A stretch of 64,000 bases of DNA. Origin: Chloroflexota bacterium. Its GTDB lineage: Bacteria > Chloroflexota > Anaerolineae > Aggregatilineales > Phototrophicaceae. Under the pieces are notes generated by a model. The model worked only from the letters and a program-made list of their open reading frames with translations. It made no database searches and was not told the DNA's origin. Where the stretch lies: NCBI GenBank assembly GCA_028875245.1, contig JAPPEU010000061.1, forward strand, positions 62,001 to 126,000. The letters run 5' to 3'. A program made the position numbers and the translations under genes. This document shows positions 2,348 through 11,692 of the stretch, piece by piece (positions within the stretch are counted from its first letter, which is position 1; each line of letters begins with the position of its first letter).

Positions 2348-4062
2348 ATAACCTGTTTGCCACTCTGCGCGATTACGATCCCGGCATGCTCCTCGCCCTG
2401 GCGGAAACCTGGCGCATCGACAGCAAGGGCCTCGCCGACGACGACATGATCCGGCAGCTGCAAGCGGCGATGCTCGATCCACAGACAGCCGAAACAGTCT
2501 GGGACCAGCTCGATGAGCCGGCCCGCGCCGCCCTGCAGCTCCTCGTCAGCAGTTCACAAGGTCGGATGAAAATCGGCCAGTTCGAGCGCTTCTACGGCAA
2601 GATCAGAAAGCTGGGCCGGGCGCAGATCGAACGCGAACAGCCGCATATCGCCGGGCGGACCATCGCGGAGACGCTCTATTACCGCGGCCTCATCGGCGAA
2701 GGTTTCGACAATGTGGATGGCAATCTCATCGGCTTTATATTCGTGCCGACCGATTTCATCAGCGCCCTGCCCCTGCACAAGACCAGCTACGAAGCGCTGG
2801 ATGCGGGCGCGGACATCGCGGGTGATGAACTGCCCGCGCTGGGTGTGATCGACGCCGTCGATGAGGTCAGCCGCGCCGATACCTCCATCGTCGATGATTT
2901 GGCGACGCTGCTGGCTCTGCTGCAAGCGCGCCCGGCCGAGTTGGATGCCGAGCGAATCGCGCCCGCCTCCGCCGCCGCCATCACGCCCTATCTTTTGCAA
3001 AGGGACGAAAATCGGCTGAGTTTCATGCTGGCGGTCGCCATCAGCGCGAATCTGATTTCAACACAAGACGGGCAGGCCCGCCCCAAACGCGACGAAGCGC
3101 GCAGCTGGCTGGAAGCGGCCCGCGCCCGCCAAATCCAGACGCTGGCGACAGCCTGGCTCGAGAGCGCAAGCTATCGCGATATGTGGCATATCCCGGGCCT
3201 GCAGCCGGAAGATTCTGGCTGGTCCTACGATGCGGCCGCCGCCCGCCGGGCCGTGATGAGCCTGCTGGCCGATCTGCTGCCCGATCATGGTTGGGTCTCC
3301 ATCAACGATATCATCGATATCATCAAAGAGTTCGAGCCGGATTTCCAACGGCCCGATGGCGATTACGAAAGCTGGTACATCCGCAATGACGCCGGCGAAT
3401 TCCTCACCGGCTTCGAAAGCTGGGACGCCGTCGAAGGCTCGCTCATCGAGTTTTATCTGGTCGGGCCGATGCACTGGCTTGGCTTGGTGGATATCGGCGA
3501 AGATGTCACCCGACTGACGGCTTACGGGCGCGCCTTCCTGGAGATCAGCGATTGGCCCAAACCTGTCGAGCCCGAAGCCGGCATTGATGTACAAAACGAC
3601 GGCACGCTGCTGGCGTCGCGCCGCGTCAATCGCTTTGAACGCTTTCAACTAGCGCGTTTCGCTCATTGCCTGCAAACGGGCGATCCTTATGTCTATCGCA
3701 TTGATGCCGCCAGCATTCAGCGCGCCGCCGCGCAAGACATCCATGCCAAGCACATCCAATCCTTCATCGTCCGACATCTCGAGGGCGATCCACTGCCGCT
3801 GCCGATCATCAAATTCCTGCGCAATTGGCAGGCCGGCGCCCAAACCTCGGTGGCGCTTGAAACAATGATCGTCTTGCGCACAACTTCAGAAGAGACCTTG
3901 GACAAGATTTTCGCGACGCCCGCCTTCCGCCGCTTTCTGGGAGCGCGCCTGGGGCCGATGGCCTGCGCCGTCCGCGCCGATCAGTGGGAAGCGCTGCGCG
4001 CGAGCCTCGCCGAAAACGCTATAGAAGTTGATATCAGCCGCTTGCACAATGACTTCGGCTGA
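2344..4062 (+). CDS. Helicase_C_3-like (XPB/Ssl2 N-terminal-type) domain protein
   Basis: A soluble protein of 572 residues. The clearest part is near residues 420-500: the sequence VQNDGTLLA, then an aromatic and Arg-rich RFERFQLARFAH segment, a Tyr-Arg (VYRIDAASIQRA) strand-helix, and a PLPLPIIKFLRNW segment. This order matches the Helicase_C_3 / XPB-Ssl2 N-terminal domain as I recall it. No Walker A or B motif is visible, so it is not itself a helicase. The N-terminal 150 residues resemble the winged-helix array found in similar actinobacterial and Chloroflexota proteins. It overlaps the zinc-ribbon gene by four bases. Role in nucleic-acid transactions is inferred. Confidence 0.72.
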   Translation: MNNLFATLRDYDPGMLLALAETWRIDSKGLADDDMIRQLQAAMLDPQTAETVWDQLDEPARAALQLLVSSSQGRMKIGQFERFYGKIRKLGRAQIEREQPHIAGRTIAETLYYRGLIGEGFDNVDGNLIGFIFVPTDFISALPLHKTSYEALDAGADIAGDELPALGVIDAVDEVSRADTSIVDDLATLLALLQARPAELDAERIAPASAAAITPYLLQRDENRLSFMLAVAISANLISTQDGQARPKRDEARSWLEAARARQIQTLATAWLESASYRDMWHIPGLQPEDSGWSYDAAAARRAVMSLLADLLPDHGWVSINDIIDIIKEFEPDFQRPDGDYESWYIRNDAGEFLTGFESWDAVEGSLIEFYLVGPMHWLGLVDIGEDVTRLTAYGRAFLEISDWPKPVEPEAGIDVQNDGTLLASRRVNRFERFQLARFAHCLQTGDPYVYRIDAASIQRAAAQDIHAKHIQSFIVRHLEGDPLPLPIIKFLRNWQAGAQTSVALETMIVLRTTSEETLDKIFATPAFRRFLGARLGPMACAVRADQWEALRASLAENAIEVDISRLHNDFG

Positions 4063-4079
4063 CCCGCCGGGCCGGCTCA

Positions 4080-4901
4080 TCAATCCTCAAAACCCAGCTG
4101 ATAAACCGCCTTCTTCTTCCAGCCGGCCAGCTTGGCGACCTCGCTGGCGGCGCGCGAAAGCGTTTCACCCGCCCCCCGCCGCTCTGACAGCGCTCGTCTC
4201 ACCCGCGCCTCGGACCAAACTGCCGCGCCCGCTTCGGCGCCGGCGATGACCAAGGTCACCTCTCCCCGCGGATTGTCTTGCGCGAAGTAGTCGCGCAATT
4301 CATGCGCGCTGCCGCGATAGAAACGCTCGAATTTTTTGCTGATTTCGCGCGCGACGCACACAGGCCGCCCCCCGCCCAGCACCTCCGCAATCACAGAAAG
4401 CGACGCGGCCAGACGGTACGGGCTTTCATAAGCGATCAAGGTCTCGCCGCATTCGGACAAGCTGATTAGCAGCTCTCTCAATCGCGCCGCCTTGCGCGGC
4501 AGGAAACCCAGATAAATGAAACGGTCGCTAGCCATGCCCGAGCCAACCAGCGCTGTCGTGAGCGCGCAGGCGCCCGGAAGCGGTATCACATCGTGCCCGC
4601 GATCAATCGCCGCCGCGATCAACTCAAAACCCGGGTCGGAGATCCCTGGCGTCCCCGCATCTGAAATCAGCGCCACATCGCCGGCGCTCAGTGCGGCAAA
4701 TATGGCATCCAGCTTGGACAGCTTGTTGTGCTCATGATAGCTGGTCATCGGCGTATCGATGTCATAATGCCGCGTGAGAACGCGCGAGGTCCGCGTATCC
4801 TCAGCCGCGATCAGCGACGCTTCCCGCAAGACGCGCAAGGCGCGCAGCGTCATATCTTCGAGGTTGCCGATCGGCGTCGGCACGATGTAAAGCGCGCCCA
4901 T
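4080..4901 (-). CDS. rsmI: 16S rRNA (cytidine(1402)-2'-O)-methyltransferase
   Basis: The 273-residue protein has the full set of RsmI marks: VPTPIGNLEDMTLRALRVL at the N-terminus, AEDTRTSRVL near residue 33, YHEHN near 55, and SDAGTPGISDPG near 80, which forms part of the S-adenosylmethionine pocket. It methylates the ribose of C1402 in the decoding centre of 16S rRNA. Length is normal for the family. It converges with the Helicase_C_3-like gene, the two stops being 17 bases apart. Confidence 0.95.
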   Translation of the reverse strand: MGALYIVPTPIGNLEDMTLRALRVLREASLIAAEDTRTSRVLTRHYDIDTPMTSYHEHNKLSKLDAIFAALSAGDVALISDAGTPGISDPGFELIAAAIDRGHDVIPLPGACALTTALVGSGMASDRFIYLGFLPRKAARLRELLISLSECGETLIAYESPYRLAASLSVIAEVLGGGRPVCVAREISKKFERFYRGSAHELRDYFAQDNPRGEVTLVIAGAEAGAAVWSEARVRRALSERRGAGETLSRAASEVAKLAGWKKKAVYQLGFED

Positions 4902-4924: not shown

Positions 4925-6124
4925 TTAAGCCGGGAAGACATGCGCCAGCGCCTCGGGCATGACGCTCTTGAAAGCGGCCAGGCTGTGACCGCTGCCCAAT
5001 TCAACGAAGCGGTAATTGAGATCCGGGTCATGCGTCGTGCGGCGCTCCAGAATGCCGCGCAGCGCCAGCGCCGGTTGATAGAAGCGCAGGTCCTGTTCAT
5101 AACGGCCCACCGACTGAAAAATGCGATTGGGCAAAAGTGGCGAATCGCGGAAGCGCTGGGCGAATTCCTTCAGCAAATGCACGGCCGGTTCGCGGCCCAA
5201 AGGCGGCGAAATCATAATCAAGTGGCCAAAGATAGCCGGGTTCTTCAATGCCGCATGCGCCGCCGCAACCGCGCCCTCGCCCACGCCTCCCAAACCCAGC
5301 TCAAGCGGCTCAATACGGTGTTCCGCCTGCAAAAAAGGCAGCAGCTCAGCCGCGATCGAGGCGTAGTGTTTGTCATTGCCGACATACTCCGCCACACGCT
5401 CCGACTGATTGCCGCTGGCGAGCATGGCGATGATGATCGGCTCCATCCGCCCGTGCTTGATCAGCGCGTCGGCGATGAATGGCACTTCCAGCGCGCCCAT
5501 CGCCCATTGCCCGTCCATCAGGATGAGCAGGCGGTAATCCCTGCCATCGTTGGCGTCATAACCCGGCGGCGTATAGACCCAGAGGCTGCGGCTGTTGAAA
5601 CCGAGCTGCGCTGAGCTGAACTGATGTCGGTAGACCCGTCCCCGCGCCACCGCGCTCATCGCGCTCCAACTCGGGAATGGGCGCGCGCGCGGCATCTGCA
5701 ATACCGACGTGTGCACCTGATTGCTGCTGATCGACAAGTCATTGCGCGCATCGGCTTGCCAAAAGCGGCCAACTCGATCCATCAGATCAAGCTCTTGCGC
5801 CAGGGGCGTGCCCGGATCGTCAATCGCAAACATGTAGTCAATCAAGGCGTCGCGCTCGAAGAATCGCTGAAAGTACCAAAGCGACGTGTCTTCAAGCCGC
5901 GCCATATTCTCAAAGGGCGGGTCTCGCTTGACGATGTCGATGTTCAGCGCCACACTGCGCGCTGTCCATGAATCGTAGACGAAGGTCGCTTTGCTCCGCT
6001 CAACCCAAGGCCACTCATCCTGGGTCGAGAGCAATTCATCCACCAGCCCCTGGCGATCATCAGGCGCGGTCTGATAAATCTCACACAAGAACTGGATGAA
6101 AGAATTCCATCTGGATGAAGCCAA
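4925..6124 (-). CDS. Fes/EsD-type alpha/beta-hydrolase lacking the nucleophile serine
   Basis: About 399 residues. An N-terminal region (1-150) resembling enterochelin-esterase-type accessory domains precedes an alpha/beta-hydrolase core: LWVYTPPGYD, then RLLILMDGQWAMG, then a nucleophile elbow, then a C-terminal GSGHSLAAF that could supply the catalytic histidine. The elbow reads GVGEG where active members have GxSxG, so the serine is replaced by glycine and the protein may not hydrolyse esters. TTG 6124 is taken as start because GGAGGG lies six bases upstream. An ATG at 6163 is in frame but has no ribosome site. It sits just upstream of rsmI on the same strand. Confidence 0.75.
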   Translation of the reverse strand: MASSRWNSFIQFLCEIYQTAPDDRQGLVDELLSTQDEWPWVERSKATFVYDSWTARSVALNIDIVKRDPPFENMARLEDTSLWYFQRFFERDALIDYMFAIDDPGTPLAQELDLMDRVGRFWQADARNDLSISSNQVHTSVLQMPRARPFPSWSAMSAVARGRVYRHQFSSAQLGFNSRSLWVYTPPGYDANDGRDYRLLILMDGQWAMGALEVPFIADALIKHGRMEPIIIAMLASGNQSERVAEYVGNDKHYASIAAELLPFLQAEHRIEPLELGLGGVGEGAVAAAHAALKNPAIFGHLIMISPPLGREPAVHLLKEFAQRFRDSPLLPNRIFQSVGRYEQDLRFYQPALALRGILERRTTHDPDLNYRFVELGSGHSLAAFKSVMPEALAHVFPA

Positions 6125-6232
6125 GTTCCGCCCTCCTCGCCGCTTCGGCAGCGACAGACACATTTTAGCACTTGCATCGCTTATGCAAAAATGAGCGGGG
6201 CGCCTGTCCAGGGCAATCGCATCAAATTATTT

Positions 6233-6424
6233 TTCAACACAGAGGACGCAGAGGACACAGAGGTCAGGTAGTTTCTGACGACAATTCCTCCAAATCCACC
6301 GTTTGAATAGGGCAAAGCTGCCAGAGAAACTTCATTTGCCGCTCAACAAATACAGTTGAAACAGAACATAAGCGTCTATTTTGTTTTTCTCTGCGATCTC
6401 TGCGCCCTCTGTAGTTAATTTTTA
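6233..6424. repeat. ACACAGAGG-type inverted repeat element
   Basis: The left arm (6233-6263) contains three tandem copies of an (ACACAG/ACGCAG)AGG unit. The right arm (6385-6424) contains the inverted form (CTCTGCG...CCCTCTGT). The arms enclose about 120 bases of AT-richer DNA with no convincing gene. This explains most of the gap between the esterase and the acetyltransferase. Related single or diverged arms occur near 39760 and at 58499-58600. Confidence 0.6.
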
Positions 6425-9478: not shown

Positions 9479-10084
9479 ATGGCAGTCACTGCAAAAGAGG
9501 TCAAGCAACTGCGAGAGGCAACCGGCGCCGGCCCGCTCGATTGCAAAAAGGCGCTGGAAAAACACAATGGCGACCTGGACGCCGCCGCGAAATACCTGCG
9601 AGAAAAAGCGCTAAAAGACGGCATCAAGCTCCAGGGTAAAGGACGCAGCGCCAACGAAGGCGTCATCGGCAATTATGTTCACTTTGATAATCGCCTGGCC
9701 GTGATCGTCGAAGTCAATTGCGAGACGGACTTTGTCGCCGCGACCGATCAATTCAAAGCCTTCGCCAAAGATATCGCCATGCACATCGCCAACATGAACC
9801 CGAAGTATGTCAAGCGGGAGGACGTGCCCGAAGACCAGATCGCTGCCGAGACAGGCCTGCAGCTGCAGCGCGCGCTGGACGAGGGCAAGCCCGAGCATAT
9901 CGCGGAAAAAATGGTCGCCGGCCGCATGAACAAATGGTATGAAGAATTCGTGTTGATGGAGCAGTCCTTCATCAAAGACGATGACAAGACGATCGGCCAA
10001 TATCTGCAGGAGACGGTCGCCGAAGTCGGCGAGACGATTCATATCGGCCGCTTCCAGCGCTTCGCCATCGGTCAAGACGGCTAA
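9479..10084 (+). CDS. tsf: Translation elongation factor Ts (short form)
   Basis: 201 residues. It opens with VTAKEVKQLREATGAGPLDCKKAL, the UBA-like region, and carries the EF-Tu-contacting EVNCETDFVAATDQF motif (TDFV) near residue 80. It exchanges GDP for GTP on EF-Tu. Length matches the compact form found in Thermus and Chloroflexota rather than the 280-residue E. coli form, because the second core subdomain is reduced. It lies between rpsB and the MerB-like gene. Confidence 0.95.
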   Translation: MAVTAKEVKQLREATGAGPLDCKKALEKHNGDLDAAAKYLREKALKDGIKLQGKGRSANEGVIGNYVHFDNRLAVIVEVNCETDFVAATDQFKAFAKDIAMHIANMNPKYVKREDVPEDQIAAETGLQLQRALDEGKPEHIAEKMVAGRMNKWYEEFVLMEQSFIKDDDKTIGQYLQETVAEVGETIHIGRFQRFAIGQDG

Positions 10085-10188: not shown

Positions 10189-10869
10189 ATGACCCCGACC
10201 GAATCCGATTGGCAGATCAGGCTGCACATCTTCAAGACCCTCGCTGCCAGCGGTCACGCGCCAAATGCGCAAGACCTCGCCGCCGACGTTGGCATCGCAA
10301 TTGACGATGTTCGCCTGGCTTTGCAGCGCTTGCAGGCCGCCCATGCGCTCGTGCTGCGTGAGGGCAGCGGCGATATCTTGATGGCGCACCCCTTGTCGGC
10401 AAGTCCGACGGATTACCGCGTGCTGCTCGGCGATACGGCGCTCTACGCCAACTGCGCCTGGGACTCGCTCGGCATCCCCGCCATGCTCGGCAAAGACGCC
10501 CGCGTCCAAGCCCGCCATCCCCTCAGCGGCGAGCTCATCGAATATGGCATAGACGCCGGCCAGCTTGTCGGCTGCCGAGATGCCATAGTGCATTTCGCCC
10601 TGCCATTCAGACAATGGTACGCCGACATTGTAGATACATGAGCGACGATTCTGCTATTCCGGTCGGAATCGGAAATCGAGCGCTGGCGCCGCATTGAGGG
10701 GCGGGAGCGTGGCGCTGTATTGACGCTGGAGCAAGGCTGGGAGCTCGCAAAGCGCTGGTATCACGACCGCATGTCGCCAGGGTTTCGCGGTCGCGAAGCA
10801 GCAGATGCCATCGCGATATTTCGCGCTCTCGGTTTGACCGACGACTTCTGGACGATGCCGCCGAATTGA
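10189..10869 (+). CDS. MerB-like (alkylmercury lyase family) protein with in-frame TGA at catalytic Cys: candidate selenoprotein
   Basis: Read through the TGA at 10639-10641, the gene gives 226 residues, the family's normal length. Residues 1-70 form a winged helix (AQDLAADVGIAIDDVRLAL). NCAWDSLGIPAMLG at 88-101 holds Cys89 and Asp92, in the Cys-x-x-Asp spacing of MerB Cys96/Asp99. VHFALPFRQWYADIVDT leads to the TGA at codon 151, where MerB has Cys159 (62 residues after Cys89, against 63). After the TGA the same frame gives ATILLFRSESEIERW, then LTLEQGWELAKRWYHDR, and ends at TGA 10867, all family-like. A hairpin follows the TGA. MerB cleaves carbon-mercury bonds. It is either a selenocysteine enzyme or a recent nonsense mutant of a cysteine codon. 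It lies between tsf and pyrH. ATG 10189 is the chosen start. Confidence 0.75.
10641..10684 (+). promoter_or_regulatory. Candidate bacterial SECIS-like hairpin after the TGA
   Basis: Three stacked helices can be drawn. Bases 10641-10644 pair with 10681-10684 (AGCG/CGCT), 10646-10650 with 10074-type partner bases 10674-10678 (CGATT/AATCG), and 10656-10660 with 10665-10669 (ATTCC/GGAAT). The apical loop is GGTC at 10661-10664, 19 bases after the TGA. A G in the first two loop positions and this distance agree with my recollection of bacterial SECIS rules. A GC-rich coding region can form such a hairpin by chance, so this is suggestive only. Confidence 0.45.
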
Positions 10870-10933: not shown

Positions 10934-11692
10934 ATGACAGCGAATGACCAGTTGCCGTATAAACGTGTGCTGCTGAAGCTCAGCGGCGAAGCCCTGGCCG
11001 GCGGCAGCGGCATGGGCATTGACCCGGAGAAGGCGGCCTATATTGCGCAGCGCGTGCGCGAGGTATACGCCCTCGGCATGCAGATCGCCATCGTCATCGG
11101 CGGCGGCAACCTCTGGCGCGGCGAACCGGCGGCCAAGCTGGGCATGGACCGCAGCACCGCCGATCACATGGGCATGATCGCCACCGTGATGAATGGCCTG
11201 GCGCTCCAGGATGCGATTGAACGCCTTGGCATCGTCACGCGCGTGCAAACCGCCGTCGAAATGAACTCAATTGCCGAACCCTACATTCGCCTGCGGGCGA
11301 TCCGCCATTTGCAGAAGGGGCGCGTCGTCATCCTGTCCGGCGGCATCGGCAGCCCCTACTTCACCACTGACTCGGCCGCCGCCCTGCGAGCGAGCGAAAT
11401 CCACGCCGATGTCATCGTCAAAGCGACAAAGGTGGATGGCGTCTACTCGGCTGATCCGGTGGAGAACCCCCGCGCGGCACGCTACAGCAAGCTGAGTTAC
11501 CAGGAGGTGCTCGACCAGCAGCTGCGGGTGATGGATACGACCGCCTTCACCCTCTGCCAGGAAAACACAATGCCGATCATCGTACTCAATTTCTGGAATC
11601 CCCATGACCTGGTCGCGGCGCTGCGCGGCGACGAGGCCATCGGCACCGTCATCAGCGACAGCCCCGGTCTCCAGGCCACGCTGCCCATGTGA
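10934..11692 (+). CDS. pyrH: UMP kinase
   Basis: 252 residues of the bacterial amino-acid-kinase type. YKRVLLKLSGEALAG near residue 9 is the phosphate loop. VIGGGNLWRG near 55 and DHMGMIATVMNGLALQDA near 78 shape the UMP site, and TTDSAAALRASEI with KATKVDGVYSADP near 155-178 complete the ATP site. It makes UDP from UMP. ATG 10934 has TAGGAGCG upstream. pyrH usually follows tsf and precedes frr. Here the MerB-like gene separates it from tsf and no frr follows. Confidence 0.95.
   Translation: MTANDQLPYKRVLLKLSGEALAGGSGMGIDPEKAAYIAQRVREVYALGMQIAIVIGGGNLWRGEPAAKLGMDRSTADHMGMIATVMNGLALQDAIERLGIVTRVQTAVEMNSIAEPYIRLRAIRHLQKGRVVILSGGIGSPYFTTDSAAALRASEIHADVIVKATKVDGVYSADPVENPRAARYSKLSYQEVLDQQLRVMDTTAFTLCQENTMPIIVLNFWNPHDLVAALRGDEAIGTVISDSPGLQATLPM

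Follow-up and report, generated by a model that had tools for sequence, protein, structure and literature searches.

A MerB-family gene with an in-frame TGA in a Chloroflexota bacterium: a probable selenoprotein with relatives in several phyla

The gene at 10189-10869 of the window (the whole stretch of 64,000 nucleotides that was analysed, from a Chloroflexota bacterium) very probably encodes a selenoprotein of the MerB family, in which an in-frame TGA stands at the column of the catalytic Cys159. Selenocysteine (Sec) incorporation is inferred from the DNA alone, without any measurement of the protein or of selenium. More broadly, the MerB family is proposed to hold at least two further active-site designs, a Cys/Sec design forming an almost Sec-only clade in several phyla and a Sec/Sec design, which together would make up a widespread and largely unannotated selenium-based cleavage of organometals outside mer operons; this wider proposal is leaned towards and not asserted. 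The features on which the analysis rests are as follows.

10189..10869, + strand: MerB-family gene, predicted selenoprotein of 226 residues with TGA codon 151 as Sec (Pfam MerB, read-through frame, relatives)
10453..10455, + strand: Cys89 codon (TGC), MerB Cys96 column (sequence, alignment)
10462..10464, + strand: Asp92 codon (GAC), MerB Asp99 column (sequence, alignment)
10639..10641, + strand: in-frame TGA, predicted Sec151, MerB Cys159 column (alignments with relatives and the MerB profile)
10656..10669, + strand: apical SECIS hairpin AUUCC-GGUC-GGAAU within the coding region, loop 19 nt past the UGA (fold, covariation, codon constraint)
9479..10084, + strand: tsf (elongation factor Ts), upstream neighbour, context only (TIGR00116; position conserved in the genus)
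10934..11692, + strand: pyrH (UMP kinase), downstream neighbour, context only (TIGR02075; position conserved in the genus)

Reading frame and family membership

The frame opens with ATG, reaches the TGA as codon 151 and runs on for 75 further codons before it stops at a second TGA (10867-10869). In the sequence-only reading this open stretch was taken for the C-terminal half of a MerB protein, and the match of the read-through protein to Pfam MerB (PF03243; E 7.7e-28; 97.4 bits, above the gathering cut-off of 27) bears this out, as it covers residues 69-191 and spans the TGA. The alignments also upheld the claimed spacing of Cys89, Asp92 and the TGA, which line up with the catalytic positions Cys96, Asp99 and Cys159 of MerB/MerB2; the set is complete only if Sec is counted as the equivalent of Cys159. 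The NCBIfam alkylmercury lyase equivalog cut-off of 193 bits was not reached (74.9 bits), and the position of MerB Cys117 is His in the genus of the window gene. The predicted product is a member of the MerB family and not the canonical enzyme. The gene is also present in G000, its own genome (4.2 Mb, 88 contigs), and promoter and terminator scans returned no matches.

A structure prediction with Cys substituted for Sec gave a pLDDT of 96.5 and a pTM of 0.92. Its nearest solved structures were MerB2 (5C17, Z 19.7) and MerB (3F0O, Z 16.2; also 3F2F), and in a sequence-profile alignment residue 151 pairs with the MerB2 active-site cysteine.

Conservation of the TGA column

Whether other Chloroflexota carry TGA or Cys at this column had been raised as a check in the sequence-only reading, and TGA was found at the same codon, not at random positions. 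In the same taxonomic family, 34 of 98 genomes have a full-length relative containing a single in-frame TGA, which always lies at the codon aligned with residue 151; Cys89 and Asp92 are retained. These 34 relatives rule out the fresh nonsense mutation of a Cys codon that had been offered as the rival, and a read-level error, named as a possible refutation, cannot account for a TGA that recurs in genomes assembled independently of one another.

MerB matches were collected over 400 genomes of the phylum, and the TGA-containing genes together with a set of Cys genes gave an 88-protein alignment; it leaves out two decayed copies and the matches interrupted by TAG or TAA. All 69 in-frame TGAs, distributed over 60 genes, sit on a catalytic Cys column: 51 genes carry the TGA at the Cys159 column only and nine at both the Cys96 and Cys159 columns, while the remaining 28 of the 88 have Cys at both. 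A scan of named genomes yielded 293 relatives, and the best 80 of these 293 all combine a TGA in the Cys159 column with Cys in the Cys96 column; they belong to Chloroflexota, Acidobacteriota, Actinomycetota, Gemmatimonadota, Calditrichota and KSB1, and the closest relatives in the scan are Chloroflexota, many labelled Anaerolineae. The Cys form is absent among the best 80 of 293, even though one of the two search patterns wrote the Sec column as Cys and was able to match Cys codons only. The counts from named genomes and from the phylum genome set share species, and the data are mostly from metagenome-assembled genomes. Dozens of species keep the TGA at this one column, which excludes chance.

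Median dN/dS was 0.26 before the TGA and 0.31 after it (145 pairs), and purifying selection persists downstream of the TGA. In the tree, the Cys/Sec clade has a support of 98/97. One small Cys subclade inside it (L051 and L052) is best read as a putative Sec-to-Cys reversion, and L097 is a separate classic-type MerB with Sec-Cys where Cys159-Cys160 is expected.

Several individual copies were observed alongside these sets. Those of L050 (G081) and L058 (G086) are decayed or internally deleted and constitute natural losses, the L058 copy still lying directly upstream of pyrH and downstream of tsf. On the Rubrobacter radiotolerans plasmid NZ_CP007515.1, merB (L214, 3935-4204) is annotated as a 90-residue organomercurial lyase whose end is the conserved TGA; its frame shifts soon after the TGA, so either the gene has decayed or its sequence contains errors. 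Close to the Cys/Sec clade there are also Cys-only relatives, namely L051, L052 and two plasmid genes from Paraburkholderia and Sphingomonas (L215, L216). In all four, Cys occupies the Sec column and, as a linked change, has also replaced Asp in the Asp99 column.

The SECIS hairpin

A hairpin directly after the TGA had been noticed from the letters alone, and it proved real, at 10656-10669, with compensatory changes in relatives. The 47 nt after the UGA in the window fold with -13.9 kcal/mol into a stem AUUCC/GGAAU and a loop GGUC, in a sequence dictated by Phe-Arg-Ser-Glu codons. Its geometry lies within the bacterial SECIS limits quoted in PMC13188914. Over 104 distinct sequences, standard pairs occupy 98.5% of the stem pair cells, and changes on both sides (C-G to T-A, A-T or G-C) were found in 13 cells as against at most 3 in 1000 shuffles; pairing fell to only 42-64% when the partner strand was slid out of register. 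The loops of these 104 sequences are GGUC (81), AGUC (18), GUGA (4) and GGGG (1). In E. coli fdhF the SECIS likewise has GGUC as its apical loop, almost equally far from the UGA, with a different stem sequence.

Codon usage in the hairpin is constrained as well. Its Ser codon is TCG in 91 of 91 cases versus 27% elsewhere in the same genes, and its Arg codon is CGG in 74 of 81 versus 20%; the corresponding p-values are very small but indicative only, since related sequences are not independent. A hairpin of -3 kcal/mol or better within the spacing and loop limits follows every one of the 69 TGA sites, including the first TGA of genes with two, compared with 33% of random places.

Selenocysteine machinery

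A search for selA, selB, selD and tRNA-Sec had also been suggested, and all four were found in the gene's own genome: SelA with 555 bits, SelB with 335 bits, SelD with 379 bits and tRNA-Sec with 70.7 bits and the anticodon TCA. The selD gene itself contains one internal TGA (L191, G000:C84:5166-6101), as expected for the known Sec-containing SelD. SelB was present in 30 of 30 genomes with a TGA-MerB, in two of them (G342, G047) only as fragments under the cut-off, and tRNA-Sec in 29 of the 30, with no match in G253 (85% complete). Co-occurrence with SelB says little by itself, since 291 of 400 genomes in the phylum have SelB.

Genomic neighbourhood

The neighbours identified at the window gene are rpsB, tsf and pyrH. 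No mer operon surrounds the gene, and no convincing functional partner was found among the neighbouring genes. MerA over the curated cut-off was found neither in its own genome nor in 26 of the 30 TGA-MerB genomes; it was found in the other 4.

Other surroundings were observed in other groups. In 18 loci of an Anaerolineales group (L183 1531-2961, L145, L146, L150 and L151 among them) the gene immediately upstream of the Sec-MerB gene encodes HMG-CoA reductase. In L205 (G163), a classic-type MerB at about 6001-6366, with Sec-Cys for Cys159-Cys160, lies about 1.2 kb from an open reading frame at 3866-4492 that matches the ArsP_1 permease family.

Genes with two TGA codons

TGA at both catalytic Cys columns was found in L054 (G031), L057 (G033), L100 (G452), L101 (G108), L102-L104 (G234), L105 (G493), L106 (G434) and L207 (G170), the last of which is outside the 88-row alignment. 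In the nine such genes checked, both TGAs are trailed by a SECIS-like hairpin, and the Sec/Sec genes fall into at least two well-separated clades of the tree. They are candidates for double-selenocysteine active sites, in two or three subtypes, and an active site of this kind appears undescribed in the literature searched.

Proposed mechanism and alternative readings

In MerB, Cys96 and Cys159 bind mercury while Asp99 takes part in proton transfer (PMC4525700, PMC8261052). A mechanism is proposed in which the UGA at codon 151 would be decoded as Sec by SelB and tRNA-Sec, steered by the downstream hairpin within the gene. Sec151, in place of MerB Cys159, would then serve as a metal ligand alongside Cys89 (Cys96), with Asp92 (Asp99) completing the catalytic set; on the model of MerB, the Sec/Cys pair would grip the metal of an organometal, and Asp92 would give a proton to the leaving carbon. 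As a ligand in this position, Sec should lack its proton at neutral pH, and it should hold soft metals more firmly than Cys does. The lower pKa and stronger soft-metal affinity of selenium are inferred to ease capture of the organometal, and handing the metal on to a small thiol or a partner protein is inferred to be the step that needs a solution.

The Sec-MerB assignment of the sequence-only reading is strongly supported by the conserved TGA column, the SECIS and the Sec machinery, with mercury as the substrate remaining an inference only. The preferred reading is a constitutively expressed organometal lyase with mercury as its default substrate and other soft organometals possible, which is likewise inferred. 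Organometal lyase activity as such is considered moderately probable. That the protein acts on an organomercurial or on some other soft organometal is inferred as well, and mercury is only the default guess, given the lack of a mer operon and of any MerA above the cut-off in the genome that carries the gene. Indeed, the tsf/pyrH or HMG-CoA reductase neighbours, the scarcity of MerA and the change of Cys117 to His all speak against a plain role in mercury resistance.

A tentative but serious alternative is that the gene encodes a genuine MerB-fold selenoprotein with another job, as a lyase or binder of a different soft organometal or metalloid, or in the housekeeping of metal or selenium. Housekeeping genes flank it in the genus (and HMG-CoA reductase in another group), 26 of 30 genomes have no MerA over the cut-off, and a Sec-MerB of another lineage sits near an ArsP-type permease gene; however, the set that is the hallmark of MerB chemistry (Cys89, Asp92 and the position of Cys159) is kept throughout the Cys/Sec clade.

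Membership of the known SaoL family of the SAO system is very unlikely and was rejected. SaoL is itself listed as a MerB-like selenoprotein (PMC13188914), and its model NF040728 gives a weak match to the window protein and ends on the TGA column of L099, but that match of 40.8 bits is far under the cut-off of 140 bits, which was reached in none of the 400 phylum genomes. No sao genes are among the identified neighbours (rpsB, tsf and pyrH, the immediate neighbours only), and about 75 residues follow the Sec. The tree was built without true SaoL sequences. Still harder to credit is the insertion of some amino acid other than Sec, through a general reassignment of TGA or through leaky read-through. 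The frame stays open however TGA is decoded, but reassignment was rejected because TGA is also the stop codon of this gene and homologues have Cys at the column; a SECIS and the complete Sec machinery were found as well. A newly arisen stop in place of a Cys codon, a pseudogene or a sequencing error there could be argued only from the single stop in frame and from the two decayed or deleted same-place relatives (L050, L058). This reading was rejected as practically untenable: the TGA recurs across dozens of species from several phyla, purifying selection continues after it, and the SECIS is conserved with compensatory changes.

Significance

Gene callers truncate such genes at the TGA, as in the 90-residue annotation on the Rubrobacter plasmid, and genes cut in this way would therefore be missed by surveys that demand Cys159 or a full-length protein. 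Very few Chloroflexi MerBs were included in a 2021 survey (PMC8261052). If the enzyme is active, selenium supply would be tied to the turnover of organomercury or other organometals. The natural series of Cys/Cys, Cys/Sec and Sec/Sec forms offers a direct test of what selenium contributes to a soft-metal active site.

Comparison with known systems

With MerB (PF03243; PDB 3F0O, 1S6L) and MerB2 (5C17), the window protein shares the fold, the N-terminal winged-helix region and the Cys96/Asp99/Cys159 columns. Unlike both, it has Sec at the Cys159 column, His for Cys117, an extra C-terminal stretch and no mer operon. The double-TGA genes resemble the window gene in belonging to the MerB family and in having a TGA with a hairpin at the Cys159 column, and differ from it in the extra TGA at the Cys96 column and in their separate clades of the tree.

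No described Sec form of the enzyme was named in the sequence-only reading, but a MerB-like selenoprotein, SaoL, is already in the literature (PMC13188914). SaoL (NF040728) of the SAO system is listed in reviews as a MerB-like selenoprotein with the motif CU (PMC13188914). It is only distantly related to the window protein, has one Sec, and was the only MerB entry among selenoproteins found in the literature, the original SaoL papers lying outside the reach of the search; in the reference given for this entry, Zhang and Gladyshev 2008, the main text says nothing of MerB. SaoL is like the window protein in being MerB-related with a predicted Sec near the active site (PMC13188914), and differs in its motif, CU as against TUA, and in length, the window protein continuing for about 75 residues after the Sec where the 159-position SaoL model about ends. 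The last position of that model falls on the TGA column of L099, and it is suggested, though not shown, that the Sec of SaoL stands at the same column as that of the window gene. A MerB-related selenoprotein is thus known as a kind; what looks new, as far as the literature searched goes, is the Cys/Sec clade, with its full-length genes and wide distribution, together with the Sec/Sec forms.
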